DNA of 64,000 bases, from the NCBI RefSeq assembly GCF_001581925.1, contig NZ_LQZA01000004.1, positions 81,764-145,763 on the forward strand. Direction: 5' to 3'. The translations under genes and the position numbers were made by a program. The DNA comes from Ferrovum sp. PN-J185 (GTDB lineage Bacteria; Pseudomonadota; Gammaproteobacteria; Burkholderiales; Ferrovaceae). Every line of letters starts with the position of its first letter. Position 1 is the stretch's first letter. Below are positions 5,666 to 23,196 of the stretch, one piece after another. The notes beneath the pieces are model-generated. The model was not told the DNA's origin. It ran no database searches and was given only the letters and a program-made list of their open reading frames with translations.

Positions 5666-5974
5666 ATGAAGCGATTACTTGTTACAGGCGCCCTTCTAAT
5701 TTCTAGCCTCAGCTACGCCCAAGTGACTAGCTGGGATAACTCACCCTTAAATTACAACAACAGCCCCCTTAACTACAACAACTCTTCTTTGAATTACAGC
5801 AATTCACCATTGAACTATCAAAACAGCCCCCTTAACTACAACTCAACCAATGGGGTTTATGACAACAATGGAAATCGAATTGGTTACGAAACTCAGTCGC
5901 CCACTGGCGTGACTAACATTTTTGATAACAATGGCAATCGAATTGGTTATTCGCCAACAGGATCAAGGCAATGA
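5666..5974 (+). CDS. secreted NSPLNYN-repeat protein, 102 aa
   Basis: A signal peptide at about residues 1-18 is followed by five tandem seven-residue units of the type N-S-P-L-N-Y-N. Two copies of a Y/F-D-N-N-G-N-R-I-G-Y unit follow, separated by a spacer. A GGAG site precedes the ATG. The short, regular, Asn/Tyr-rich repeats suggest a surface or matrix protein, possibly with stacked beta structure, but no function is known to me. Its stop overlaps the start of the next gene by four bases. Confidence 0.65.
   Translation: MKRLLVTGALLISSLSYAQVTSWDNSPLNYNNSPLNYNNSSLNYSNSPLNYQNSPLNYNSTNGVYDNNGNRIGYETQSPTGVTNIFDNNGNRIGYSPTGSRQ
5738..5842 (+). repeat. five tandem 21-bp coding repeats
   Basis: Five consecutive in-frame 21-bp units encode NSPLNYN, NSPLNYN, NSSLNYS, NSPLNYQ and NSPLNYN. 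Units two and five are identical at the DNA level while the others carry silent and missense changes. This suggests slippage or unequal exchange followed by drift. Confidence 0.9.
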
Positions 5975-6171
5975 AGACTTTTGAATACGAATTAGTAAAA
6001 ATGGAGCCTGTAGAAACAGACTGCGATACCGCACAAGAGATTCTTAATGATCGAGGATCAGATGGCTATCGTTTTATCGGCATTCAAAAGTTGTGGGCCA
6101 GAGATAGCGAGTACAACGCAATCCAACGTAATTTTTTAGTTCTTGAAAAAGAAATTGAAGACGAGCTTTAG
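5971..6171 (+). CDS. small hypothetical protein (DUF4177-like), 66 aa
   Basis: The start overlaps the preceding stop (ATGA), implying translational coupling to the repeat protein. The layout (FEYELVKMEP, then LNDRGSDGYRFIG and a beta strand ending NFLVLEKE) resembles the very small DUF4177-type proteins, whose role is unknown. It has no signal peptide, so unlike its neighbours it should stay in the cytoplasm. Family assignment is tentative. Confidence 0.5.
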   Translation: MKTFEYELVKMEPVETDCDTAQEILNDRGSDGYRFIGIQKLWARDSEYNAIQRNFLVLEKEIEDEL

Positions 6172-6172
6172 G

Positions 6173-6364
6173 ATGTCCCATAGCCCCTCCAAAGAAAAAC
6201 TATTATTTTTAGATTTTGATGGGGTTTTGCATCCAACTCACTTTGCGGGCGAATCTCCATTCTCACGCGCAGCTCTTTTGGAAGAATCTTTTGCCTTACT
6301 ATCACCCAAGATTGTGATTTCATCTAGCTGGCGCTTTACACACAATCTTGAAAAACTACAAAAG
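6173..6364 (+). pseudogene. HAD-like hydrolase gene, truncated by IS insertion
   Basis: The ATG at 6173 follows the previous stop at once. The 64 remaining codons encode a HAD motif I (LLFLDFDGVLHP) and a motif II-like ISSSWRF, a pattern I associate with small HAD domains of the Swiss Army Knife RNA-repair type. The coding sequence is cut at 6364 by the left end of the IS element, and the rest of the HAD fold is gone. By chance the frame stays open into the IS and continues in frame through orfA to 6703, giving a chimeric reading frame. Confidence 0.7.
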
Positions 6365-6421
6365 TGGCATTCCCCCAATCTAGTAGACATGTATTATTAT
6401 CAACTAAGAAAGGGGAAAATC

Positions 6422-6703
6422 ATGAAACGAACTCACTACTCGGCTGAGTTTAAGGCTGAAGCGGTAAAGCAAGTTGTTGAAAAAGGTCATTCTGTTGTTG
6501 ATGTGGCCAAACGCTTAGGTTTTGGCGAAGGACTTTTATATCACTGGGTCAGGTTGAGTAGACTACCTCAAGAGCCGGTGCTTGACGACATGAAATCTAT
6601 TCGTGAGGAAAACGCCAGGCTCAGAGCTGAATTAAAGCGAACGACTGAGGAGCGCGATATTTTAAAAAAGGCAACGGCGTACTTTGCAAAGCAGCAAGGG
6701 TGA
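6422..6703 (+). CDS. IS3-family transposase OrfA, 93 aa
   Basis: OrfA is a helix-turn-helix DNA-binding subunit. THYSAEFKAEAVKQVVE and the VVDVAKRLGFGEGLLYHWV helix-turn-helix (about residues 20-40) are typical. A C-terminal leucine-zipper-like coiled coil (EENARLRAELKRTTEERDILKKA) follows. An AAAAAAG run at 6664-6670 is a plausible programmed -1 frameshift site for making the OrfAB transposase. OrfB also has a GTG at 6700 overlapping the OrfA stop. Confidence 0.9.
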   Translation: MKRTHYSAEFKAEAVKQVVEKGHSVVDVAKRLGFGEGLLYHWVRLSRLPQEPVLDDMKSIREENARLRAELKRTTEERDILKKATAYFAKQQG

Positions 6704-7561
6704 AGTACGCTTTTATTCAAGCACACCGAGGTGAGTTTAGGTTGCTGAGCATGTGTCGCATTCTGAAGGTGCATAGAAGCGGTTTCTATGCTTGGCTCAA
6801 GAAGCCTTTGTCGCCAAGGTCTGTAGCTAATGAGTCGTTGTCTCGACAAATTCGACATTTTTATGATTTAAGTAACGGCATTTATGGGAGTCCAAGGATT
6901 TATACCGATTTGAAAGAGGCAGGAATTCATTGCGGTGAAAATCGCATAGCACGCCTCATGAAAGTAGCGCAAATCAAGTCAGTGCGGGGATACAAACGTC
7001 CACGATATAAAGTAGGAAGGCCCTTCACAGGTTGCTCCCAATAAGTTGCAGCGACAATTCACATATGATCATCCCGATCAAGCTTGGGTGACGGATATTA
7101 CATATATTCGAACCTATGAAGGGTGGCTGTATTTGACTGTAGTGATTGATCTTTACTCTAGGGCTGTGATTGGCTGGAGCATGAGAAACAGCTTGGAGAC
7201 CAAAATTGTTTTAGATGCATTAACAATGGCTAAATGGAGACGAAAACCCAAAGGAGAAATCATCATTCATTCCGATCAGGGCAGCCAGTTTGGCAGCGAT
7301 GAGTTTAATCGCTGGTGCAAAGACAATCAATTAAGCCCCAGCATGAGTCGAAGAGGAAATTGTTGGGATAATGCGGTTGCAGAATCATTTTTTAGTAGCT
7401 TAAAAAGTGAGCTGATCAAGCGAAGGATATATCCAACAAGATCAGAGGCGAAGTCGGAAATATTTGACTATATAGAAGGCTTTTACAATCGAACGAGACG
7501 CCACAAACATCTCATGCAATTGAGTCCTATGGAGTTTGAAAAACGTCAAACTGCGTTATGA
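6700..7561 (+). pseudogene. IS3-family transposase orfB, frameshifted
   Basis: The DDE transposase domain is split. The first part ends at a stop at 7042-7044 after GRPFTGCSQ. The second continues in another frame as VAPNKLQRQFTYDHPDQAWVTD. Reading CACAGGTTGCTCCC with one G fewer restores a continuous protein, so a one-base insertion near 7029-7031 is the simplest cause. The catalytic residues are all present: Asp in WVTDITYI, Asp in IHSDQGSQF and Glu in NAVAESFFSSL. The element is therefore probably immobile on its own, unless this frameshift is recoded. Confidence 0.85.
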
Positions 7562-7590
7562 AGTATGTCTACAAAATTGGGGGAATGCCA

Positions 7591-7685
7591 CACCGAATTT
7601 GACACCATTCACTCAGCGGATTTCTCCATCTGGTGCACAACTTACGCTATGAGTCCTCTGCTCTAACCAACTGAGCTATAGGCCC
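7591..7685 (-). pseudogene. tRNA-Ile2(CAU) 5' exon plus truncated group I intron
   Basis: Read leftward from 7685, the sequence gives the acceptor 5' strand (GGGCCTA), D-arm and anticodon arm of a tRNA up to CTCAT, so the anticodon is CAU as in tRNA-Ile2. Instead of AATCC, the following 58 nt (7648-7591) contain AATGGTGTCAAATTCGG. I recall this as close to the P3-P4 region of the Azoarcus tRNA-Ile(CAU) group I intron, which sits at the same position. The IS end at 7590 removes the rest of the intron and the whole 3' exon, so no tRNA can be made here. Confidence 0.75.
7649..7685 (-). repeat. att-like direct repeat copy C (tRNA-Ile2 5' half)
   Basis: These 37 bp, from GGGCCTATAG to GGACTCAT, are identical to 20841-20877 and differ by one base from 20616-20652. 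All three copies have the same orientation. They mark the integration core used by the island and lie at its left end. Confidence 0.8.
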
Positions 7686-7759: not shown

Positions 7760-7899
7760 AATTTATCGGATTTAACAGGCTACAACCTGTTGTTTTTGTT
7801 ATGTTTTTCTCCAAAAAACGTTTTAAGTAAATAGATTATGAGACGATTAACTAAAAATAAACCTAGTGTTTATGCGGCTTAGCGGGCTATTTGCAAGAC

Positions 7900-7920
7900 T
7901 GTAGAAGCAACTGTAGAAGT
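7900..7920 (+). repeat. second paired GTAGAAGCA motif
   Basis: GTAGAAGCAAC then TGTAGAAGTA form a second tandem pair. The preceding TTGCAAGACT matches TTGCAAAACT before the pair at 20517-20536, so the similarity extends beyond the motif itself. It is a likely duplicated attachment arm. Confidence 0.5.
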
Positions 7921-8081
7921 AAGTAGCATTTTACGTAAAACTAGCACTGCTAAAGAACAGCCATCTTGAGTGACTATTTTAGCTATACAAGACACGTCAT
8001 GGATACATGTTTACGCAATGCATAGCGTCAGTTCATCAACATTGCTCTTTTGAATCGTTTGACTGGATTTCAGCGTTAGCT

Positions 8082-9974: not shown

Positions 9975-12900
9975 TTAAACCTTCTCCATCCAATCTTCAC
10001 CTAGCGCCTGAACTTGCTGCAACACCAACTCTACAGCAGCATCTTGTTGGTCTGGTGGGTACTTGTACTTGCGCAGAATACGTTTAACCATCAATCGCAA
10101 ACTTGCACGAACACTTTCGCGCTCAGACCAGTCAACCTTTAAGTTTTGACGCAGGTTCTCAGTTAGTTCGTGCGCAATCTTCTTCAAAATCTCATCGTTC
10201 AGTTCGCGAACAGCAGATTCATTGTTCGCTAATGCGTCATAAAACTTAACTTCATCGTCAGTCAGTCCTAGCTGTTCGCCACGTCCACTAGCTTCACGGA
10301 ACTTCTTAGCCATTTCAATCAGCTCTTCCATCACCTGCGCTGTTTCGATTGCGCGATTTTGGTAACGCTGAATGACACTGGTTAAAAGGTCGCTGAACTT
10401 CTTCTCTTGCACAACGTTACTCTTGAAGCGGCTCTTTATTTCGCCTTGAAGTAATCGTTCAAGCAGTTCAACTGCCAAGTTACGCTCAGGCAAGTTTCGG
10501 ACTTGAGCCAAGAACTCATCATCAAGTAGGCCAATGTTTGGTTTCTCAAGGCCAACAGCATCGAAGATATCTACAACGCTATCGGAGACCAATGCTGAGC
10601 TAATGATTTGACGGATAGCTAGGTCACGTTGCTCGTCAGTTTTACGCTGTGCAGTCAGGTCACGCTTAGTCAGTAGCACCTTAATGCCTTGCATGAACGC
10701 CACTTCTTCGCGTACTTGTTTCGCCTCATCCAATGTGCAGCAAAGGGTAAATGCCTTGCTCATAGCTACTGCTGTGTCAGCAAAGCGTTTCTTGCCATCC
10801 TTGATGCCTAAAACATGGTTAGCTGCGCCTGCTAGTGCTTTGTGTCCAGCCGTCATAAAGTTGCTGTAGTCGAAGCCATGCAGCATTCCGCGAAGAATAT
10901 CCAACTTCTCAGCTAGTACGCTATAGGCCTCTTGTGCATCGACTTTGATTTGTCCACGGCCTTTGCTGCCCGTGTACTCTTTCATGGCAGCTTTAAGCTC
11001 GTTACCAATACCGATGTAGTCAACGACTAAGCCGCCTTGCTTGTCCTTAAACACACGATTCACCCGTGCAATCGCTTGCATTAGGTTATGGCCTTTCATC
11101 GGCTTGTCCACGTACAGCGTATGCACGCAGGGAGCGTCAAAGCCTGTTAGCCACATGTCCCTAACAATAACCAGCTTCAGTTCGTCGTTAGGGTCTTTAA
11201 ATCGTTTCTCAAGACGTTTTTTAGTTTTGCCATCGTAAATGTGCGGTCGAAGCAAGGCTTTATCACTTGCGCTGCCAGTCATCACAACTTTGATTGCGCC
11301 TTTTTCGGGGTCTTCGCTGTGCCAATCAGGACGTAGTTTGACAATCTCGTTATACAAGTGGACACAGATTTCACGGCTCATAGCAACAACCATTGCCTTA
11401 CCAGCCATTGCCTTATTACGTTCTTCAAAGTGCAGCACTAAGTCAGCGGCAACTTGCGCGACCCGAGGGGCAGCACCAACGACCTTTTCAAGTGCAGCCC
11501 ACTTCGATTTCAGCTTTGCCTGTGCGCCTTCTTCTTCATCTTCTGCCAGTTCATCAACTTCAGCGTCAATCGTTGGCAAGTCTTCATCTTTTAGCCTTAG
11601 CTTGGCTAAACGAGATTCGTAGTAAATCGCAACAGTGGCGCCATCTTCCTTAGCCTGTTGCATGTCATATACGTGTATGTAGTCGCCAAACACAGCGCGA
11701 GTATCACGGTCTTCACTGCTTACAGGCGTTCCAGTAAAGGCTACAAAGGTTGCATTTGGGAAGGCATCACGTAAGTGCTGTGCATAACCAGCTTGATAGC
11801 GTTCTTCGCCAGCCTTACCTTTTAGCTTCGCCTCAAAACCATACTGAGTTCTATGCGCTTCATCTGCAATCACTACGATGTTGCTGCGGTCGGATAAAAC
11901 AGGGAAAGCGTTTTCGCCATCATCCAGCATAAACTTTTGAATGGTTGCAAACACAATACCGCCAGAAGGGCGTTTGCTTAACTTGTCACGTAAGTCTTGT
12001 CGTGATGCCACTTGTATAGGTTGTTCACGAAGTAAATCTTGAGACAAGCTAAACACACCAAACAACTGACCATCTAAGTCATTGCGGTCTGTAATAACAA
12101 CGACTGTTGGGTTTTCCATTGCAGCTTCTTGCATCACGCGAGCTGCAAAGCATGTCATGGTGATGCTCTTGCCGCTGCCTTGCGTATGCCAAACAACGCC
12201 GCCTTTATGCGTCCCATTAGGACGTGAAGCAGTTACGACTTGATTGATAGCTGCACGTACAGCATGGAACTGGTGGTAGCCAGCAATCTTTTTAACCAAC
12301 TTGCCATCATCTTCAAACAGAACAAAGAAGCGGAGATAGTCTAAGAAGTATTGCGGGTCAAACAGACCGCGCACTAATGTTTCGAGTTCGTGGAACTGTC
12401 CAAGTGGGTCAATCGTTAAGCCATCAATAGTTCTCCATGCCATAAAGCGTTCTGCATCTGCAGAAAGCGACCCAAGCAGTGCCTCTGTACCATCCGAAAT
12501 AACTAAGACCTCGTTGTACTGGAAGACGTCAGGTATTTGTTCTTTGTAGGTTTGGATTTGGTCGAACGCTTTCCAAACGTCAGCATTAAGGTCTGCTGGA
12601 TTTTTTAGCTCGATGAGAGATAGCGGCAGTCCATTAACAAACAAAATAATGTCAGGGCGGCGTGTATGACGGGGACCTTTGATGGTGAACTGATTAGCTG
12701 CTGCCCAGTCGTTGTTTGTTGGATTCAGCCAGTCAACTAACTTAACAAAGTCACCTCGTGTTTCGCCGTCTTTTTGATACTGAACAGGTACACCATTAAC
12801 AAGCAGCTTATGAAAGTGACGGTTAGCAGATAGTAGTGATGGGATGCCTAGGTCTTGTACTTGCTTAAATGCATCTTCACGTGCGGCAGTTGGTACAGTT

Positions 12901-13070
12901 GGGTTAAGGCGATTGATTGCTTTACGTAGGCGAAATGGGAGAAACGTTTGAATGTAATCAACTCGTTCAGGGCAAATGCCGTCAAAAGCAATGTCAGGAC
13001 CCTTTAGCAACTTGTATCCAATGTCGCTTAGCCAGCCTAACGTTTCTTGTTCTAGTTGGTCTTCTGTCAT
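9975..13070 (-). CDS. hsdR: type I restriction enzyme, R subunit (HsdR), 1031 aa
   Basis: HsdR is the ATP-driven DNA translocase and endonuclease of a type I restriction-modification complex. The N-terminal PD-(D/E)xK nuclease is visible as [11 protein letters not shown] (Asp140) and SLIELKNP (Glu154, Lys156). The SF2 motor follows, with Walker A HTQGSGKS (Lys301), the DEAH box in [18 protein letters not shown] and [10 protein letters not shown] helical C-terminal part would dock on HsdM. Length and domain order are normal and the frame is intact. It follows hsdS after four bases, in the order hsdM-hsdS-hsdR. Confidence 0.95.
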
Positions 13071-13074
13071 AGTT

Positions 13075-14421
13075 TTATGCCGTTAATGAATCAAGTTCAA
13101 CATCATTAACGCTAAGCTGACCTGAGATGAGGCGTGGGAGTAGAGTGTCGCGTAAAGACGACAGTGTTTCTATTTGCATCATTTGGATTCTGTTGACGAA
13201 AACTTCCACTGCTTCAGCAAATGCAATCAAAACACTCTCGCATGGGATAACTACTAACTCATTTTCTAAAAAATGTGATGTTTGAAAGTTTGCAATGCCA
13301 GTGCTTTGGTTTTGGTATTCCCACGTTTTGCCTATTGCATATATATACGTCAAGTGTTGCGCTAGTAGAACACCAATATTTTTATTGATGGGTCTCATCA
13401 GTCTACAAAAGCTGGCGGGCTCGACAGGGCAGTCAAATCGATCAAGTAAGTTTTGAGATAGGAAAAGAGAACGACCAGTGGGCTGTTCTTTGCTACCACC
13501 AGATACTTCTATCAAAATATCACCATCTTGAAGTCTTCGAGTAGCAAGTTTTTTTTGTGATGTGTAGCGTATGGGAACACGATTGTTAGTAGACATTTGC
13601 AAGTCAGGGATATCAGTTCCACGAATAATCGCTACCCGAACGTTATTTTTTTCATCAGAAACATCACTGCCCCAATCACCGCCAATCGTATTCGTTATCA
13701 GTTCGCCGAAGGGAACTAGTTTCCAACCTTCAGGAAGCAATCCTTTTTTAGATTCAGTGAAAACTTTAGGGAAAAGTTTCATTGTTGCTTCAGGTATGCC
13801 TTGTAGAAGTAACCCAGATACATTGGCATGAACTATGTCGAAATCTACGAACCATGACTTAAATAGGGCTTGCGCAAGTTGCTCCAATGTTTTATTTGTA
13901 TCTTGTAAAAGCTGAATACGATTATCTATAGTTGAAAGTATTTGAGCCGCTTGTCTTCGCTCATTTTGTGGAGGACAAAAAAACTCATACTCTGCAATAG
14001 ATTGCCATGAGACCCTTTGCCGTCCTGAAGTGCCTTCCATACGGCTGATCGCATATTCACGGAACGAAGGCTCTCTGCAGAGGTAATAAATGAAATCATT
14101 GTCAGCTTCATCGATGCCACATAAAACTATGAACTCTGTAGAACCTTCGCCGACAACATTTTCATTAAGACAGCTTACCTGTGCTGTCTTGCCATTCTCA
14201 AGGCACGGTGTGATGCGTGCCAAAAGTGTGTCTCCATTTTGAAAGTGTGAGCCAGCTGCTTTTGCTATTCGCTTTTCAATACTATCTACAGTTATATTTC
14301 GTGAATGTTGCGGCACTGCGGCCATGTCTACAAATGGAATCTCAACCCCTTTTGTAATAGACCGTTTAGGGTTGATTTTTGCGATGTTATCTAGTCGAAC
14401 CATTTGGTGATTAAAAGTCAT
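13075..14421 (-). CDS. hsdS: type I restriction enzyme, specificity subunit (HsdS), 448 aa
   Basis: HsdS carries two target-recognition domains that read the halves of a bipartite site, joined by conserved helices. The first half runs to about residue 205, including the spacer helix [40 protein letters not shown] split over its length. The second starts near [13 protein letters not shown] and ends with [26 protein letters not shown]. The start overlaps the end of hsdM by 11 bp, implying coupled synthesis. The target sequence cannot be inferred here. There is no sign of shuffling repeats or truncated extra hsdS copies. Confidence 0.93.
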
Positions 14422-15958
14422 AGCCTAATGCGCCAAGTTGATTTTTAATAAGTATGTCGAGCTCTGTACCTTTTCTCATTTGCTCCCCTAACTTTTCAGT
14501 CAGCATTTGCATCTTTTCTGCAAAAAGTTCATCGTCGTCTTCGACTTCTTCAGCCCCTACATATCGACCAGGAGCTAGTACATAGTTGTGTTCTGCAATC
14601 TCAGCCAGTTTTACATTACGGCAAAAACCAGCAACGTCTTCATAAATCCCTTTCTCTCCACGCCATGCGGCCACTGTTCTTTCTATTAAGCCAATAGCGT
14701 CATCAGTAAGCTCTGATTGAACACGGCTAATCATCGTAGCCATCTTGCGAGTATCAATAAAAAGTACATCACCCTTGCGTTCCGTTTTTTTCTTAACTAA
14801 AAACCATAAGCAAGCTGGTATTTGGGTGTTGAAAAATAGTTGACTCGGTAAAGCAATCATTACTTCAACAACATCTGCTTCAATCATGGCTGCACGTATC
14901 GCTCCTTCGCTATTTTGCGTAGAACTCATACTGCCGTTAGCTAAGACAATGCCTGCGCGACCCGTTGGCTTAAGGTGATACAGCATGTGCTGCAACCATG
15001 CATAGTTAGCATTGCCTTGAGGCGGGTCACCATAAACCCAACGTGCATCTCCCATCAAGCTGCCATGCCACCAATCACTAATATTAAATGGTGGGTTAGC
15101 TAGGATGTAATCAGCACGAAGATCGGGGTGTTGATTTTTCGTAAATGTGTCATTTGGTTCGCGGCCAAGATTGAAGTCAATACCGCGAATAGCCAAGTTC
15201 ATAGCAGCTAGCCGCCAAGTCGTTGGGTTTGCTTCCTGTCCGTAAATAGCTACATCACCAATCTTGCCGCCGTGCGATTCAATAAACTTTTCGGATTGCA
15301 CAAACATGCCGCCAGAGCCGCAGCATGGGTCGTACACCTTACCTTCGTGCGGCGAGAGAACGGCAACCAATGTTTTGACGATTGATGCAGGTGTGTAGAA
15401 CTGTCCGCCACGCTTACCCTCCGCACTAGCAAACATTCCTAAAAAGTATTCGTAGATTTGTCCCAGTACATCACGGGCAGTGCTTGGGTTTTCACCAAAC
15501 CCAATCGTTGAAATCATGTCAACGAGTTCACCCAACTTGCCATCGGGTAACTGCGCACGTGCATAGCGTTTATCGAGGATGCCTTTAAGTTTTGGATTTT
15601 CAGTTTCAATGACTGTTAGTGCATCATCAATACGCTTGCCAATGTCGGGAGCTTTTGCCGCAGCCCGAATAGCCTCCCATCGTGCAGCCTCAGGAACCCA
15701 AAAAACGTTAGCTGCTGTGTAGTAGTCACGTTCCTCCAGTTCTACTGCAATGTCTTCATCGCTAGCATCAGCTATGTAGTAATCATCTTTTGGGTCACGC
15801 AACCGTTGTGTTAGCTCTTGTTGCTTTGCAGAGAAGGTGTCAGAGATGTACTTTACGAAGATGAGACCAAGCACAAGATGCTTGTATTCAGCGGCATCCA
15901 TGTTTGCACGTAACTTGTCAGCAGTAGCCCAAAGCGTTTTTTTAATATCGTCCAGCAT
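14411..15958 (-). CDS. hsdM: type I restriction enzyme, methylase subunit (HsdM), 515 aa
   Basis: HsdM is the N6-adenine DNA methyltransferase subunit that protects host sites. The N-terminal helical domain (DDIKKTLWATADKLRANM) is followed by the Rossmann catalytic domain. The SAM-binding motif DPCCGSGG is at residues 210-217 and the adenine methylase motif NPPF at 288-291. It is the first gene of the hsd operon, 20 bp after a small ribbon-helix-helix gene. Length is typical, so the system looks functional. Confidence 0.95.
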   Translation of the reverse strand: MLDDIKKTLWATADKLRANMDAAEYKHLVLGLIFVKYISDTFSAKQQELTQRLRDPKDDYYIADASDEDIAVELEERDYYTAANVFWVPEAARWEAIRAAAKAPDIGKRIDDALTVIETENPKLKGILDKRYARAQLPDGKLGELVDMISTIGFGENPSTARDVLGQIYEYFLGMFASAEGKRGGQFYTPASIVKTLVAVLSPHEGKVYDPCCGSGGMFVQSEKFIESHGGKIGDVAIYGQEANPTTWRLAAMNLAIRGIDFNLGREPNDTFTKNQHPDLRADYILANPPFNISDWWHGSLMGDARWVYGDPPQGNANYAWLQHMLYHLKPTGRAGIVLANGSMSSTQNSEGAIRAAMIEADVVEVMIALPSQLFFNTQIPACLWFLVKKKTERKGDVLFIDTRKMATMISRVQSELTDDAIGLIERTVAAWRGEKGIYEDVAGFCRNVKLAEIAEHNYVLAPGRYVGAEEVEDDDELFAEKMQMLTEKLGEQMRKGTELDILIKNQLGALGYDF

Positions 15959-16243: not shown

Positions 16244-17221
16244 ATGACTATGAAAAACGTTTGGTGTGTGAGAGCTGAGTTTGGTACGTATACCAACCAC
16301 TTTGTAAAAGGTGGTTACGTTGGTATCGGCTATGGTTTAACTTCTAGCTTGGCTAGCGTTACGACTAGAGAAGAACTGACTTCTTTGTATAAAGCTGCAC
16401 ACCCCGAAGAAACAAGTAACTTGGTTGTCGGGCAGCAAGTTGGACAAATCGCACGATTCCTTCTTGACATGAAAGAGGGTGATTACGTTATTACCCCTGC
16501 AGCTGATACCGAGTGGCTGCACTATGGACAGCTAACCGATAAAACCTATTGGTTTGATGATGTGAACAGCGATGGATGCCCATACTTTCACAAGCGCGGC
16601 GTTGAGTGGGCTAGTGAAAAGTTGAGTAGGTCTGCTTTCTCTGTCCCATTTCAAAATACCGTTCGTTCATCGCTAACCGTTTTCGGCATTAGCCAACAAG
16701 ATGAGTTCCTAACGGTAATCAAAGCAGATGGTCATGTGTCGCAAAAGAATACGGCTGTTTATGACCCCTACGAATCAGTGCTCGAGCAAGTTCTTGAGTT
16801 AGATGACAAAGAGTTTGAAATACTTGTTGGATACCTTTTGACTGCAATAGGCTTTGAAGAAAGCCAAGTTACAGGCAAGACGGGTGATGGCGGTGTTGAT
16901 GCGACAGGTATATTGAACGTAGCTAACCTTGCAAAGGTTAAGGTCTTCGTTCAGGCAAAGCGTTACAAGCGTGGTTCGAAAATAAATGCGAACGTTGTTA
17001 AGCAACTAAGAACAGCTATACCTGTTGGTGGTCAAGGTGCTTTTATTACTACCGCAGACTTTCAAAGTGCTGCTGCTGATGTAGCAGTAGAGGCAGGCTT
17101 CCCAAGAATCGGCTTAATAAACGGCAAACAGCTTGTAGATTTGTTAGTTGAACACTGGGAAGACTTGCCAACAGAGTTTAGAGACCGACTCGGGTTACGT
17201 ATTGGACTAATAAGGGCTTAA
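16244..17221 (+). CDS. Mrr-like (type IV) restriction endonuclease, 325 aa
   Basis: An N-terminal domain of about 170 residues (KNVWCVRAEFGTYTNHF to SVPFQNTVRSSL) is shared by many Mrr-like nucleases and probably recognises substrate. The C-terminal Mrr catalytic domain shows GDGGVDATG (Asp219) and VFVQAKRYK (Gln237, Lys239), the PD-(D/E)xK variant of the family. Such enzymes cut modified or foreign DNA. The start has two candidates, 16244 and 16250 (MKNVW). It diverges from the hsd operon, and its stop shares a base with the next start, so the two downstream genes are coupled. Confidence 0.85.
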   Translation: MTMKNVWCVRAEFGTYTNHFVKGGYVGIGYGLTSSLASVTTREELTSLYKAAHPEETSNLVVGQQVGQIARFLLDMKEGDYVITPAADTEWLHYGQLTDKTYWFDDVNSDGCPYFHKRGVEWASEKLSRSAFSVPFQNTVRSSLTVFGISQQDEFLTVIKADGHVSQKNTAVYDPYESVLEQVLELDDKEFEILVGYLLTAIGFEESQVTGKTGDGGVDATGILNVANLAKVKVFVQAKRYKRGSKINANVVKQLRTAIPVGGQGAFITTADFQSAAADVAVEAGFPRIGLINGKQLVDLLVEHWEDLPTEFRDRLGLRIGLIRA

Positions 17222-17743: not shown

Positions 17744-18036
17744 TCTGCTGTAACCCTTTTTTAAGCCCTACAAGCTGCGCTAGTGTCAGCTCTGCTACCC
17801 AAGCCAGCCCTCAACCTTCAAAACGCTTGCAGGGCTTGTGCGCAAATCACGCATTGTTAGTGGCTAATCTGCCACGAAAACAGCTAAATAAGTACTGAGC
17901 ATGTTTTATACAAAACATTATCAGTGCAGCTAAGTCGTTGATTTTCAATAGGCTAGCAACAGGCAAAAAAGGGGTAGGAATATTGAACATAAGAAAACAT
18001 ACTGCATGCAACGTTTTAATAGGAAAGCAGGACGAA
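17744..18036. other. non-coding spacer before the small recombinase gene
   Basis: I see no gene here. An in-frame TTG at 17938 could extend the recombinase by 33 residues, but that extension has no recognisable domain. GTCGTTGATTTTC near 17935 recalls GTTGTTGATTTA near 20565 and 21094, so this may hold another copy of an element-end motif. Confidence 0.4.
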
Positions 18037-18606
18037 ATGACGAAGCAAGCAAAAACACTAAACGAGCGCGAACTGCAAAGATTGCTTGAAAGTGCAGCAG
18101 CTACAAAAAGCGCAAAGCGCAACCGTGCAATCCTGCTGCTCACGCACTTAGCTGGTATGCGCATTGGCGAAGTTGCTGCTGTTCGCGTTTGCGATGTGCT
18201 TGCTACAGACGGAACAGTGCGTGATGAAATCAACTTAAGCGCAATGCAAACGAAGGGCAACAAGAGCAGGACAGTGCTTTTAAATGAGCGTATGCGCAGC
18301 GAGCTTGAAAGCTACGTCCGCACGTTGCGCATTAAAGATGTAAAGCAAGCTTTGTTTGCTACGCAGCGCAGCGCAGCGTTTACTGCAAACTCGCTAACCC
18401 AAATCGTTAACGGTATTTACAAGCAAGCGGGCTTTGACAGCGGCAGCAGTCATAGCGGTCGCAGAACTTTTTTAACTAACCTTGCTGAGAAAGGCGTTAG
18501 CGTAAGAGTGATGATGGCACTTGCTGGTCATAGCGCAATGTCTACTACTCAACGTTACATTGATTTGCGTCCAGGAGTGCTGCGTAACGCTATTGAACTT
18601 GTTTGA
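18037..18606 (+). CDS. small tyrosine recombinase, catalytic domain only, 189 aa
   Basis: The ATG at 18037 follows an AGGAC ribosome site. The protein is a near-minimal catalytic domain with the complete tyrosine-recombinase set: Arg42 (AGMRIGEV), Lys in the KGNKSR hairpin (about 74-77), His139 and Arg142 (HSGRRTF), His165 (LAGHSAMST) and Tyr174 (TQRYIDL). The usual N-terminal SAM-like core-binding domain is absent. It ends four bases from the 3' end of the larger integrase, tail to tail. It may act as an excision or resolution enzyme or as a separate island's integrase. Confidence 0.85.
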   Translation: MTKQAKTLNERELQRLLESAAATKSAKRNRAILLLTHLAGMRIGEVAAVRVCDVLATDGTVRDEINLSAMQTKGNKSRTVLLNERMRSELESYVRTLRIKDVKQALFATQRSAAFTANSLTQIVNGIYKQAGFDSGSSHSGRRTFLTNLAEKGVSVRVMMALAGHSAMSTTQRYIDLRPGVLRNAIELV

Positions 18607-18609
18607 TAG

Positions 18610-20043
18610 CTACTGAGACTTGGTCTTAGCTTTGCTTTTAGCCTTGCTAGCCTTAGCTGCAACTTTCGCAGATTGGTACAAGTCAGGAACTTCTACAGGC
18701 TTAAACAATGCTTGACGAGCATTAGGCGCTTTAAGCTTGTGTTTGATTTGCTTGAGCGTGCCTCGGTCATAGCGCTTCATCAACATTTCAGGCGAGTTTC
18801 CAAGTGCCTTAGCTAAGTCACGCATATCCACATCGTCATAGTCCATTACCGCTGTACTAAACAAGCTGCGGAAGCTGTAAAGCACTCTTTTTCTTCCAGT
18901 GTTCCTATCTTTCAACATGTTGTACTCTTCAAGAAAGTGCTGGAACATATGCAGCGCACTTGCCAAGCCTTCGCCGTCACTCGTCATGAATATCTTGTCT
19001 TCATTCTTAGTTTCGATGAGGTGCTGTAACTTGTTTGATTTCCTAATATTTTTATAGCGTCTATTCGCAATCTCTTTCAGCACTCTGTATGTCATGTCAT
19101 AACCAACAGCATGCCTAGTACCTTCTTTGCCATCTACGAATAACGAAACTATTGGTGTCCAGACTGTGTTTGGAAGCGGATTTCCTTCTTCGTCATACGG
19201 CCCATTGCTCAACTCAACATACTCTCGTTCGTAGTCGATCATTTCTTCTTTTTCAACTTCATCTTCAACAAACTGCACACCTGCTGTTTCGTGCTGCACT
19301 TCGAACTCTATGTTCTTCCACTGCAAATCTAACAACTCTTTTCCGGGTCGCGCTCCTGTATCAACTAACACCCTTACGTAGTCATGTACTACTTGACGCT
19401 TTTCTTTGTGGTGTTGACGTCCATTAGCAACCCACTCTGGCATGTTTGCAAGAATGATGTTTGTTTCATATACCGTAAAGGTTGCGTGCCTCTCGCTCTT
19501 TTGCCCTTTCGTTTCCAGATAGGGCATTTTTAAACCTGACATCAAGTTGCGTGAGATTGCTTCCTTAAAAATCATATTGAGCACAACGTTGTGCTTTCTT
19601 ACTGTGCTGTACTTGGGTGTCTTGCCCATCTCTTTCACGCGCCACTTCTCATAATCTTCGATGGTTTCGCTTGTAATATTTGAGATGACCATGCTTCCAA
19701 AAAACGGAACAAGGTACTTGTCGATGATGCGCTTGTACTGTGTGTAGGAATCGACTTTGTGACCAGAAGCTATTCGCGCTTCCATTGCTTTCAAAACTAA
19801 CTGTGCAACATCACGCAGTCGTTTTGTAACTACTGGCAAGTTTTCCTCTTTTCGCAAAAGAGCTTTAGCCAGTATTTTTTGTGCAGCAGCATTTGCCTTG
19901 TTTAAATCACGCTCTTTTGTAGTTTGCGTAAACCACGTGTCTTCCACCTTGTATCTGCAATACCAAACTTCAGTGTTTGGGCGCTTGAAGACAACAAGCT
20001 CGCGCTCTATAAGTTGATGTGTGTCGTCACGTTTTACGGGCAT
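18610..20043 (-). CDS. tyrosine-recombinase integrase, 477 aa
   Basis: This is the likely integrase of the island, reading away from the attachment region with its start about 100 bp from the intron-bearing tRNA. An N-terminal arm-binding region and a SAM-like core-binding domain (about 75-170) precede the catalytic domain. Arg232 lies in DTGARPGKELLDLQW, Arg392 in LYSFRSLFST and the nucleophile Tyr425 in MLMKRYDRG. The two usual His residues are replaced by Tyr389 (YSFR) and Asn416 (LGNSPE). The C-terminus is an Ala/Lys-rich tail. The frame is intact. Confidence 0.88.
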   Translation of the reverse strand: MPVKRDDTHQLIERELVVFKRPNTEVWYCRYKVEDTWFTQTTKERDLNKANAAAQKILAKALLRKEENLPVVTKRLRDVAQLVLKAMEARIASGHKVDSYTQYKRIIDKYLVPFFGSMVISNITSETIEDYEKWRVKEMGKTPKYSTVRKHNVVLNMIFKEAISRNLMSGLKMPYLETKGQKSERHATFTVYETNIILANMPEWVANGRQHHKEKRQVVHDYVRVLVDTGARPGKELLDLQWKNIEFEVQHETAGVQFVEDEVEKEEMIDYEREYVELSNGPYDEEGNPLPNTVWTPIVSLFVDGKEGTRHAVGYDMTYRVLKEIANRRYKNIRKSNKLQHLIETKNEDKIFMTSDGEGLASALHMFQHFLEEYNMLKDRNTGRKRVLYSFRSLFSTAVMDYDDVDMRDLAKALGNSPEMLMKRYDRGTLKQIKHKLKAPNARQALFKPVEVPDLYQSAKVAAKASKAKSKAKTKSQ

Positions 20044-20097: not shown

Positions 20098-20133
20098 AAG
20101 AAAAAAAGGGCTGCACACGCTAATGTGCAACCC
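20098..20133 (-). terminator. Rho-independent terminator after the intron-bearing tRNA
   Basis: On the minus strand, GGGTTGCACA pairs with TGTGCAGCCC around TTAGCG, with one internal mismatch, and is followed by a run of at least eight T residues. It lies just 3' of the tRNA and before the integrase start, as expected for a separately terminated tRNA transcript. Confidence 0.85.
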
Positions 20134-20143
20134 TTATCTAATA

Positions 20144-20467
20144 TGGTGGGCCTCCCGTGAGTCGAACACGGCACCAACGGATTATGCTTACCACTACAGT
20201 TTTCACTGCCTGTTTCCAGTTTGTAGTCTGGACTGTCTCTTGTCTTTACGACCTACCCGTACAGTCTCTACACGTTCCAAACATTTCTGTTTGGCTTCGC
20301 TCGGGATTACCACGCTGTTACACAGAGGCTTCCCCGACTTTGAGTAGTTCTACATATAAGCAGAGCTAACTTACCTATATGCAACCCAATCGTTGCCAAC
20401 CATTGCCTAAGCTTTAGGTTGGCTTCTTTTAAGTCCGCTGCTCTAACCAAGCATGAGCTAGAGGCCC
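20144..20467 (-). tRNA. tRNA-Ile2-like (CAU) interrupted by a group I intron
   Basis: Read leftward, exon 1 is 20467-20432 and exon 2 is 20186-20144. Joined, they give a complete cloverleaf: acceptor GGGCCTC/GAGGCCC, D-stem GCTC/GAGC, anticodon stem GCGGA/TCCGT, loop CTCATAA and T-stem CCGTG/CACGG with TTCGACT, then ACCA. The anticodon is CAU and the overall sequence is like tRNA-Ile2, which reads AUA after lysidine modification. The D-loop is two bases longer than in the three nearby tRNA-Ile2 fragments, so the mature tRNA is 79 nt with CCA. If splicing were one base later the anticodon would be UAU, but the intron would then not end in G. Confidence 0.85.
20187..20431 (-). ncRNA. group I intron in the tRNA anticodon loop, 245 nt
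   Basis: The insert between the two tRNA exons contains group I core elements in order. These are a P3/P4-like ACTCAAAGTCGGGGAAGCC, a P4-P6 stretch GTAATCCCGAGCGAAGCC, the P7 5' strand GTGTAGAGACTGTACGGG, the P7 3' strand AGACAGTCCAGACTACA, and a P9-like hairpin. These match the tRNA introns of cyanobacteria and Azoarcus (subgroup IC3) as I remember them. It ends in G as required and has no open frame for a homing endonuclease. The 5' splice site is placed from the anticodon loop; the P1 pairing with GGACT is weak and not certain. Confidence 0.85.
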
Positions 20468-20516
20468 GAAAAATCTATATTCTCCACGTTTTTCTACATT
20501 GCAAACTTGCAAAACT

Positions 20517-20536
20517 GTAGAAGCACTGTAGAAGCA
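20517..20536 (+). repeat. paired GTAGAAGCA motif, right end of island
   Basis: GTAGAAGCACTGTAGAAGCA lies 50 bp from the 5' end of the intron-bearing tRNA. It differs by one base from the pair at 7740-7759, which stands at the same distance from the truncated tRNA. It is a candidate integrase arm site. Confidence 0.55.
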
Positions 20537-20615
20537 CTATTTTAAGGTTAAAAATCTCCTAAGTTGTTGATTTATAAGCGGTTTTTTGAGTACTTACCGC
20601 TTAGTTAAATAGGTT
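20537..20615. other. inverted-repeat spacer beside att copy B
   Basis: No gene is seen. AAGCGGT and ACCGCTT form an inverted repeat near 20576-20604. AGTTGTTGATTTA near 20563 recurs near 21092. These may be recombination-directionality or integrase sites. Confidence 0.35.
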
Positions 20616-20652
20616 ATGAGTCCTCTGCTCTAACCAACTGAGCTATGGGCCC
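20616..20652 (-). repeat. att-like direct repeat copy B (tRNA-Ile2 5' half)
   Basis: This repeat is the same 37-bp tRNA 5' half as copies A and C, with one change in the acceptor strand (GGGCCCATAG). Downstream sequence after CTCATAA is unrelated to a tRNA or an intron, so it is a bare attachment remnant and not a tRNA gene. Confidence 0.8.
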
Positions 20653-20840
20653 GTTAATCTTTACATGCAATTTTGCACTTCTTAACCGCTTCAAAACCAC
20701 ACTAAAACCGCATTTACTACACACCTCGGTTTTTGCTTCGGTGTGTAAGCGGTGTGTAGTGAATTTATACCGCCTAATTCACCACTAACCTCTTGAATCT
20801 ATTGAGGTCTTTGTTACAAGACCCCTAGGGCTTCTTTCTT
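20653..20840. other. 188-bp remnant between two att copies
   Basis: No gene is seen. It holds ACTACACACC (20716-20725) paired with GGTGTGTAGT (20751-20760), an extra GGTGTGT copy at 20740, and a small GGTCTT/AAGACC hairpin near 20806-20823. It is flanked by direct repeats and may be what is left of a second, deleted element. Confidence 0.45.
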
Positions 20841-20877
20841 ATGAGTCCTCTGCTCTAACCAACTGAGCTATAGGCCC
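20841..20877 (-). repeat. att-like direct repeat copy A (tRNA-Ile2 5' half, chromosomal side)
   Basis: This is a perfect match over 37 bp to copy C. It is the outermost copy, next to rpoD, and probably the original 5' end of the chromosomal tRNA-Ile2 gene left behind by integration. No tRNA 3' half follows. Confidence 0.8.
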
Positions 20878-21235: not shown

Positions 21236-23122
21236 TTAATTATCGTTGTTATCAATAAAACTTCTTAATCGTTCAGAACGTGAAGGATGACGAAGTTTTC
21301 GTAACGCTTTGGCTTCAATTTGACGAATACGCTCACGAGTGACATCAAACTGTTTACCTACCTCTTCAAGAGTATGGTCAGTATTCATCTCGATACCAAA
21401 GCGCATTCTTAGTACTTTGGCTTCACGTTGCGTTAATGAATCAAGCACATCTTTAGTCGCATCACGTAGGCTTGAATATAACGCTGAATCGGATGGCGCC
21501 AGGGTTGCTGTGTCTTCAATAAAATCCCCCAAATGGGAATCATCATCATCGCCAATAGGTGTTTCCATAGAAATAGGCTCTTTAGAAATTTTGAGAATTT
21601 TTCTAATTTTATCCTCAGGCATTTCCATTTTCTTAGCCAATTCTGCAGGATCAGGCTCAAGACCAGTCTCTTGTAGAATTTGGCGAGAAATCCTATTCAT
21701 CTTATTGATGGTTTCAATCATATGCACAGGAATACGAATAGTTCTTGCCTGATCAGCAATAGAACGTGTAATAGCCTGACGTATCCACCATGTTGCATAG
21801 GTAGAGAATTTATAACCGCGACGATATTCAAACTTATCTACCGCCTTCATAAGACCGATATTACCCTCTTGAATAAGATCCAAGAACTGTAAACCACGAT
21901 TCGTGTATTTTTTAGCGATAGAGATCACCAAACGCAAGTTGGCTTCAATCATCTCACGTTTAGCACGTCTTGCACGTGCTTCACCGGTAGACATCTGACG
22001 GGCAATTTCTTTTAAATCTTTAATTGGAAGACCCACATCTTTTTGCAGTTCCAACAAGTTTTCTTGTTGCTCAACCACATTATGTTTAAGTCTAGCTAAT
22101 GAGGCACTATAAGCTTTGCGACCAGCAGACTCTTCAGTAACCCATTTGATGTTAGTTTCATTACCAGGGAAAGACTTAATAAAGTGATTACGCGGCATTC
22201 CCGCCATATCCACGCATAATTTCATAATCTCTTTTTCATGATTACGAACTCGTTCAACTAATTGACGTAATCCATTAGCCAAATTTTCAACTTGTTTGGC
22301 GGTAAAACGAATACCCATTAATTCTTGAGAAATACTTTCTTGTAGGTCCTTGTAAGCGCGACTGCGTGAACCTTTTTCAGCTAACGCCTTTTTCATGCGC
22401 TTACTTAAACGACGAATTGAACCAAAACGCTCCAGTGCATCGGCCTTTAACTGTTCCAGGTTGGCGCTACTGATGCCACCACCTTCACCGTCTTCCCCCT
22501 CCTCTTCTTCTATTTCCATGTCCTCATCATCAGACATCATTTGTGTTTCAAGTTCTTCTTCTTCACCGTTAGGATCAACGAGTCCATCAATAACCTCATC
22601 AACACGTAACTCGTCTTTTTCAATCCTGTCAGCTAGCTCTAAAACTTGATCAATGGTAGAAGGGCAAGAGGAAATAGCCTGAATCATATGCTTCAAGCCA
22701 TCTTCAATACGTTTAGCAATTTCAATCTCACCTTCACGGGTGAGAAGATCAACTGTACCCATTTCACGCATATACATACGTACAGGATCAGTGGTTCTGC
22801 CGAATTCAGAATCTACTGAGGATAATGCTGCTTCTGCTTCTTCAACAATATCTTCATCAGCAACAGGGGGTGGGGCATCAGACATGAGTAACTGTTCGCT
22901 ATCAGGTGCCTCGTCATAGACAGCGATACCCATATCATTGATCATGCCAATAACAGATTCGATTTGTTCAGCATCCAACATGTCATCTGGTAAATGATCG
23001 TTGATCTCTGCATAAGTCAAGAAACCACGCTCTTTACCTAGTACCACTAAATTTTTTAGGCGTGTCCGTTGCTCCTCCAAATCTGTTTGGCGGGATTCGG
23101 ACTTAGAATTATCATTTGCCAT
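21236..23122 (-). CDS. rpoD: RNA polymerase primary sigma factor RpoD (sigma-70), 628 aa
   Basis: RpoD directs RNA polymerase to housekeeping promoters. It shows region 1.1 at the N-terminus, region 1.2 ([13 protein letters not shown]) and an acidic non-conserved insert ([18 protein letters not shown]). Region 2 ([21 protein letters not shown]), region 3, and region 4 with the helix-turn-helix [20 protein letters not shown] follow. I prefer the ATG at 23122 (MANDNSK); a GTG four codons upstream is too close to the AAGGGG site. It follows dnaG, the classical order, and is the last core gene before the island. Confidence 0.97.
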
Positions 23123-23196
23123 GATCAGTGACACCCCTTTGAAAATTGTTAAAAATTAATACATAAAACCTTGTATTCTACCATAAAAGACGCAAC

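Follow-up and report, generated by a model that had tools for sequence, protein, structure and literature searches.

How does a cell read AUA codons when the gene for the tRNA concerned, tRNA-Ile2, has been split by a genomic island? The question is raised by a locus of Ferrovum sp. PN-J185, lying in the stretch of 64,000 nucleotides analysed here (the window). Along the minus strand the order is rpoD, a tRNA-Ile2 5' half starting at 20877, another starting at 20652, an intron-split tRNA gene, an integrase gene and restriction genes. We consider, with a probability of about 0.85, that an island (element C) has split the host's tRNA-Ile2 gene and replaced it with its own intron-bearing gene, on which the cell probably lives. 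The ends, the split, the cargo gene, the class of its intron, the exon junction and the lack of a second intact copy in the assembly were read from sequence.

The interrupted tRNA gene and its intron

The gene for tRNA-Ile2(CAU) occupies 20467-20144 of the minus strand, with a 245-nt group I intron between U33 and C34. A first-pass annotation had described a tRNA-Ile2 gene split by an intron of this length, and its boundaries and terminal G were as claimed; once the exons are joined, ARAGORN gives a complete cloverleaf with the anticodon CAU. The features are these:

20432..20467, minus strand: 5' exon of the element-borne tRNA-Ile2, with U33 as its last base (ARAGORN fold; identical uninterrupted exons on a Cupriavidus plasmid)
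20187..20431, minus strand: group I intron of 245 nt at the U33/C34 site, with terminal G (RF00028, 34 bits, E 8.2e-7; covariation)
20144..20186, minus strand: 3' exon, including the CAU anticodon and CCA (ARAGORN fold of the joined exons)
20106..20135, minus strand: terminator-like hairpin and T run, 3' of the tRNA (three such sites in the stretch, against 0.6 expected)
20382..20388, minus strand: proposed internal guide, UGGGUUG (invariant in seven sequences, an invariance that is no test of pairing)
20261..20266, minus strand: 5' strand of P7, GACUGU (structure test)
20231..20236, minus strand: 3' strand of P7, ACAGUC (G-C replaced by C-G, on both sides, in two of seven sequences)

Plain ARAGORN, which allows no introns, reported 0 tRNAs in the whole window. 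Its intron mode, a finder of the kind that the annotation had recommended, did report a 245-nt intron in the unspliced gene, but set the break 3 nt downstream and hence labelled the gene Leu(taa). Because ARAGORN names all CAU tRNAs Met, the isotype was taken instead from the linkage of this exon type to rpoD and from the presence of separate Met genes in the genome. A natural control is provided by plasmid pMTS1 of Cupriavidus sp. P-10, which carries the 79-nt exon sequence identical (79/79) and intronless, with no integrase noticed among its neighbours; this copy, together with the covariation described below, rules out an artefactual tRNA-like fold. The exons are present on 12 Cupriavidus or Burkholderia plasmid records (H1-H12), the whole uninterrupted gene at least in pMTS1. 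The annotation's 'own terminator' corresponds to the hairpin at 20135-20106, directly after the tRNA gene. Between 20050 and 21300 there is one promoter-like site, fewer than in shuffled sequence, and the fold of the unspliced RNA beats those of shuffles (z -3.83).

Is the insert a group I intron? The annotation had pointed to group I core motifs, including both P7 strands, and had proposed an Rfam check, which gave nothing at gathering thresholds anywhere in the window but succeeded in a permissive scan of 851 bases, where RF00028 matched over its full model at 20206-20425 (minus strand; 34.0 bits, E 8.2e-7). The gathering score is 50, and several relatives likewise fall below it. Against the whole 1.89-Mb genome the same match had an E of 4.2e-7, and the sole other match had 14.4 bits and an E of 0.32. 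A hand-written model comprising P1, P10, P2, P3 (as a pseudoknot) and P4-P9 was then compared with seven homologous genes that have an intron at the U33 site. Some 96.9% of cells were paired, a percentage biased upward because the structure was partly drawn from the fold of six of the seven sequences (the P3 pairing is absent from that fold, and one P3 pair varies in three ways). Changes on both sides were seen in 24 of 66 pairs, against a shuffled mean of 13.6, with 0 of 500 shuffles reaching 24, and control structures slid by 1 to 3 columns gave 0 to 4. Thus, the core helices covary across the seven sequences. P1 and most of P3 are nearly invariant and so weakly test pairing, and one P10 pair is broken in three of the seven. 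In the proposed guide, GGUU would pair with GACU of the 5' exon (U-G at the splice site) and the preceding UG with C34 and A35. A U36-G pair and a terminal G are found in all seven U33-type sequences, and the terminal G in 13 of the 13 intron-bearing cargo genes dealt with below, for which boundaries were set in this analysis. The RF00028 match, the covariation and the natural intronless copy support assignment of the insert to group I, as the annotation had it. A stretch of Pelagibacter phage HTVC120P (19653-19799) shows a 71% match to the intron core.

Element C, the broken host gene and the supply of tRNA-Ile2

The cargo tRNA gene begins 146 bp inside one end of element C, which extends from 20620 to 7836 (12,778 bp core to core). 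The island and its surroundings contain the following:

21236..23134, minus strand: an open reading frame named from its sequence, which we take to be rpoD; marker of the host locus
20839..20877, minus strand: 5' half of the host's own tRNA-Ile2, 3' of rpoD (the upstream stretch aligns to the intact locus of a sister species)
20614..20652, minus strand: second tRNA-Ile2 5' half, beginning of a cargo tRNA that belonged to an older element, now mostly lost (complete parts, in the same order, in G062)
20614..20620, minus strand: left core, CTCATAA, in the anticodon loop of the tRNA-Ile2 5' half (Jir61 homology stops here)
20514..20536, minus strand: arm-type repeat pair TGCTTCTACAGT of the left end (repeat search of the window)
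18610..20043, minus strand: element C integrase, 477 aa (phrog_1 integrase, E 1.5e-27)
17938..18606, plus strand: second recombinase reading frame, 222 aa (PF00589)
16244..17221, plus strand: Mrr-type restriction endonuclease (Pfam)
9975..15958, minus strand: type I restriction-modification genes, namely hsdM (14411-15958), hsdS (13075-14421) and hsdR (9975-13070) (Pfam)
7898..7921, minus strand: arm-type repeat pair of the right end (repeat search of the window)
7836..7842, minus strand: right core, CTCATAA (Jir61 homology stops here)
7647..7685, minus strand: third tRNA-Ile2 5' half, continuing into an intron of the after-CAU type (sequence match)
7592..7648, minus strand: start of that intron, truncated by an insertion sequence (edge uncertain by about 3 nt)
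6364..7591, plus strand: insertion sequence with 27-nt inverted repeats and transposase-like reading frames (sequence features)

The 7-bp core, CTCATAA, is the anticodon loop of tRNA-Ile2. At up to one mismatch, TGCTTCTACAGT has eight matches in the window (0.5 expected), and its paired copies at both ends are placed as the arm sites of an integrase would lie. The 477-aa integrase adjoins the tRNA gene, as the annotation had noted; no PF00589 catalytic domain was found in it at E 0.001, Pfam giving N-terminal SAM-like domains only. The second recombinase (17938-18606, plus strand), also inside element C, looks unrelated and is convergent with the main integrase. Among ten element proteins compared with Pfam there was no phage structural gene: they comprise recombinases, restriction-modification proteins, NT5C, DUF6641 and two without a family. 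Viral contigs yielded neither an integrase relative nor a circular-form junction, and a search of plasmids with the integrase gave only one remote match, in Alteromonas.

The half at 20877 is taken as the start of the host's own gene because the stretch preceding it aligns with that preceding the whole tRNA-Ile2 gene of a sister species (G002). A 12-base motif from the 3' half of the host gene is absent from the window, allowing up to one mismatch. We considered whether 20838-20653 might be a mobile element of about 190 bp, and rejected this: in G062 and G414 the same stretch runs into a complete cargo tRNA gene, so it represents one end of a longer element. Sister species have both types of intron at this host locus (after U33 in G001, after CAU in G002), and in G003, of the same genus, no tRNA-Ile2 5' half was found at up to three mismatches. 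No short direct repeat was seen at the edges of the insertion sequence, which truncates a reading frame running into it (6143-6364, plus strand; presumably phosphatase-like, from its motif). A small reading frame nearby (5666-5974, plus strand) has 21-bp tandem repeats encoding NSPLNYNN-like units.

A second copy of element C (12,197 bp) came to light through an integrase search of named genomes, in another genus, in Limnohabitans sp. Jir61. The cargo tRNA with its intron (324/324) and the integrase gene (1434/1434) are identical in the two. The left ends align over 2,946 bp (98.8% identity) and the right ends over 459 bp (99.8%), each alignment breaking off at CTCATAA. In the middle, the two copies are 84-91% identical where they match at all. 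The order in Jir61 is a tRNA-Ile2 5' half, another element (D), CTCATAA, element C with its window-type cargo tRNA, CTCATAA, a group I intron (59 bits) and a tRNA-Ile2 3' half. Element D brings a complete cargo tRNA, interrupted after CAU by an intron, together with a separate integrase that shares 36% identity with that of the window. Neither junction of element C rebuilds the native tRNA-Ile2, and by eye the two outer halves are compatible with a single acceptor stem; the native Jir61 gene, with its after-CAU intron, was thus split and not rebuilt. The idea that a 5' half borne by the island might rebuild the gene at the right end was discarded, as the Jir61 copy stops at CTCATAA and has no such half.

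What other source of tRNA-Ile2 might the Ferrovum cell have? The genome has 37 tRNAs by RF00005, each named by ARAGORN, and the two that have a CAU anticodon are, from their sequences, the elongator and the initiator tRNA-Met. No other intact tRNA-Ile2 gene was found in the six-contig assembly, only the three broken 5' halves. A tRNA(Ile)-lysidine synthetase, TilS, is encoded (TIGR02432, 177.4 bits; cut-off 93.6), and AUA codons occur in eight of the eight reading frames counted, including rpoD, dnaG and tsaD. The island gene is therefore probably the only source of tRNA-Ile2, and the cell appears to depend on the island for the reading of one codon. Among the 37 tRNAs there is no tRNA-Ile(GAU) either, and the single rRNA spacer seen (contig C6, 1-12000; L049) has tRNA-Ala(TGC) only, which may reflect an assembly gap or an unusual rRNA operon. 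A gap, and hence an overlooked tRNA-Ile2, is thereby possible, and this, with the RF00028 score below the gathering level, could be used to argue that the split gene is a decayed pseudogene, the real tRNA-Ile2 lying in the gap. Such an argument is hardly credible in the face of exons identical at 79/79 positions to an uninterrupted copy, a cargo gene unchanged in Jir61, intact covariation, and a native locus after rpoD that is present in the assembly, and split.

The annotation had suggested that the island rescues the tRNA gene that it disrupts. The Jir61 junctions and the lack of another intact copy argue for this, with the refinement that the cargo would replace the host gene, not repair it. 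The integrase, we infer, recombines at CTCATAA, the heptamer that forms the anticodon loop of tRNA-Ile2; integration would split the target gene, with no junction restoring it; and the loss would be made good by the complete tRNA-Ile2 gene of the island, which lies inside the end turned to the promoter side of the host, runs in the same direction and has a terminator after it. This gene is presumably transcribed and essential, and its intron, located after U33, would have to be spliced out in the cell before the tRNA, after lysidine modification, could decode AUA. As the other copies in this genome are broken, the cell probably lives on the intron-bearing tRNA of the island.

Cargo tRNA genes in other islands and the origin of their introns

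Complete cargo tRNA-Ile2 genes were found at 15 loci including the window, 13 with a group I intron and two (G211, G270) without. Five introns are of the U33 type (element C in the window and in Jir61, G287, G157, and L122 from an Oxalobacteraceae metagenome-assembled genome, MAG), and eight follow CAU (Jir61 element D; L121, from a Comamonas MAG; L125; L127, from a Methylophilaceae MAG; G062; G414; G335; G214). Twelve distinct cargo genes with introns were scanned with Rfam, and 11 match RF00028 (E up to 0.05); the exception, G214, has no match at E 0.05, its intron being called solely from 76% identity to that of G062. All 15 genes fold as CAU tRNAs once their exons are joined, and all have the same orientation and the same place by the element end. 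Fourteen stand behind a tRNA 5' half, and element C of Jir61 stands behind element D. A 5' half followed by end repeats and then by a complete cargo tRNA is also the arrangement in G287, L122, L121, L125, L127, G062, G414, G335, G214, G157, G211 and G270. About 24.5 kb beyond the cargo gene of G414 lie a partial intron and a 3' half, again without a 5' half. With its exact ends, its second copy in another genus and these 15 loci, the annotation's picture of a mobile island bringing its own tRNA-Ile2 has held up well.

The count of introns is biased by the finding of four loci (G157, G335, G214, G414) through intron searches; in the flanks searched at these, there was no adjacent relative of the integrase. 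If the query and its Jir61 twin are set aside, the integrase searches by themselves gave six loci with an intron (G062, G287, L121, L122, L125, L127) and two without (G211, G270), with near-copies among them (L121/L125 and G287/L122). The integrase had matches in 13 of 399 genomes of the order, and five of the 13 (G000, G062, G211, G270, G287) have an adjoining cargo tRNA-Ile2; among named loci the figure is six of eight (it is absent at L124 and L126), L123 and G287 being one record. The rule is not universal: in G099, where an integrase of this family occurs, one end carries an entire tRNA-Ile2 and the opposite end a decayed 3' copy. In G229, G246 and G277 the integrase adjoins an unbroken tRNA-Phe or tRNA-Lys and no split half was seen, and in G411 it lies by a tRNA-Lys half, about 8 kb from an unbroken tRNA-Lys(CTT). 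The G211 bin has an intact rpoD-linked tRNA-Ile2 on another contig besides its split locus, so either two strains are present in one bin or there is no dependence there. Upstream of the tRNA-Ile2 of G099 (L102, 544-1638) a 159-bp sequence is repeated in tandem, every copy containing part of the tRNA 5' end.

Might the tRNA be a passenger, a flanking gene picked up by imprecise excision and without any role in rescue? Passive carriage of tRNA copies is possible, and capture would be easy: the long-D-loop exon type, which the annotation had interpreted as divergence from the host copy, is what other members of the order ordinarily have as their rpoD-linked tRNA-Ile2, and the cargo gene was therefore probably captured from such a host. 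The idea of a mere passenger nevertheless seems to us very improbable, given a cargo of constant position and orientation at 15 loci, the intact folding of all 15 despite differing exons and introns, and the failure of either element C junction in Jir61 to restore the native gene.

The introns themselves are not limited to islands. The U33 intron had a match in 19 of the 399 genomes, three of which (G000, G287, G157) have a second 5' half upstream and 15 of which do not, the remaining match being in another tRNA (G299); the CAU-type intron was matched in 14, four (G062, G414, G335, G214) with a second 5' half upstream, six without, and four with short matches that were not classed. It is therefore probable that the islands took up intron-bearing host tRNA-Ile2 genes. 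Other tRNA genes of the order also have group I introns (L004, L008, L011, L064, L010, L152), with anticodons, by eye, of Asn(GUU) in L004 and Arg(CCU) in L008, L011 and L064. Alternatively, mobile introns could have invaded native and cargo tRNA-Ile2 genes independently, with no part played by the island. The 15 U33-type and six CAU-type genomes lacking a second 5' half lend this some weight, and we rate it at a little under even odds; a 245-nt intron has no room for a homing endonuclease, and intron mobility would account for the origin of the intron while leaving the architecture of the cargo unexplained.

Could the introns have a use of their own? Both intron sites interrupt the anticodon-loop site (CU/CAUAA for the U33 type, CUCAU/AA for the CAU type), the former destroying CTCATAA and the latter removing its 3' side, and the two intronless cargo tRNAs have recoded anticodon stems (GGCGA..TCGCT and GTCGA..TCGAT, against GAGGA..TCCTT). 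It is conceivable that introns shield the replacement tRNA from the island's own integrase, addicting the host to a tRNA that is processed by a ribozyme and is safe from cutting by other islands of the family. We think this unlikely, if worth keeping in mind: the CAU-type cargo gene of L121 retains CTCATAA across its exon-intron border, the native Limnohabitans gene was hit despite its after-CAU intron, and element C hit the half gene at 20652, with which an older cargo tRNA began. The intron may simply have come along with the host gene that was captured.

Known systems and what the finding would mean

The closest parallel to the replacement of tRNA-Ile2 by element C is tRNA-dependent lysogeny in mycobacteriophages (Guerrero-Bustamante and Hatfull 2024, PMC10865867); the paper also points to such a prophage in Lactobacillus. 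As described in the abstract and passages of that paper, such phages share with element C a tyrosine-type integrase, a tRNA-gene target, a cognate tRNA on the element and a short core (about 10 bp in the phages, 7 bp in element C) that leaves the tRNA unrestored. They differ in being phages of actinobacteria, whereas element C has a betaproteobacterial host and no recognised phage gene among the ten proteins compared with Pfam; in the replacement tRNA, which has a group I intron here, no intron being mentioned in that abstract and those passages; and in the need for the tRNA, which was shown for the phages and which for element C we infer. Thus, of the features of tRNA-dependent integration, element C has the non-rebuilding core and the same-isotype tRNA, and lacks the temperate-phage carrier.

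The intron of Azoarcus pre-tRNA-Ile lies right after CAU. That site, different from the one in the window, is used by the second intron type of the sister elements, so the Azoarcus parallel drawn by the annotation holds for a group I intron in tRNA-Ile and fails for its position. Judging from the relevant passages on the Azoarcus intron (PMC3984707), both are group I introns in the anticodon loop of tRNA-Ile, that of the window differing in its place between U33 and C34 and in being in an island-borne gene. Islander islands, in the passages of PMC4383910, resemble element C in having an integrase next to one end, tRNA fragments at the ends and an anticodon-centred site, but there the target is restored at the junction, whereas here it would be replaced. 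The Islander search relies on tRNA finders (PMC4383910). Split cargo genes are invisible to plain ARAGORN, and since plain finders miss them, carrier genomes look devoid of tRNA-Ile2. Tycheposons likewise have a tyrosine recombinase and a bordering tRNA, with no intron-bearing replacement tRNA mentioned in the passages of PMC10872708 that describe them. In the open-access literature (subscription journals were mostly outside our scope) we found no description of an island-borne, intron-bearing replacement tRNA. The logic of replacement is thus already known from tRNA-dependent lysogeny; the intron-bearing cargo, islands as its carriers and betaproteobacteria as hosts are new to us.

If our reading is correct, tRNA-dependent integration would extend beyond actinobacterial phages to islands, and the recurrence of group I introns in anticodon loops would have a testable reason, the loop being the crossover site of an integrase. 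In many lineages of one order, essential decoding in free-living bacteria would then rest on a mobile element and a ribozyme.
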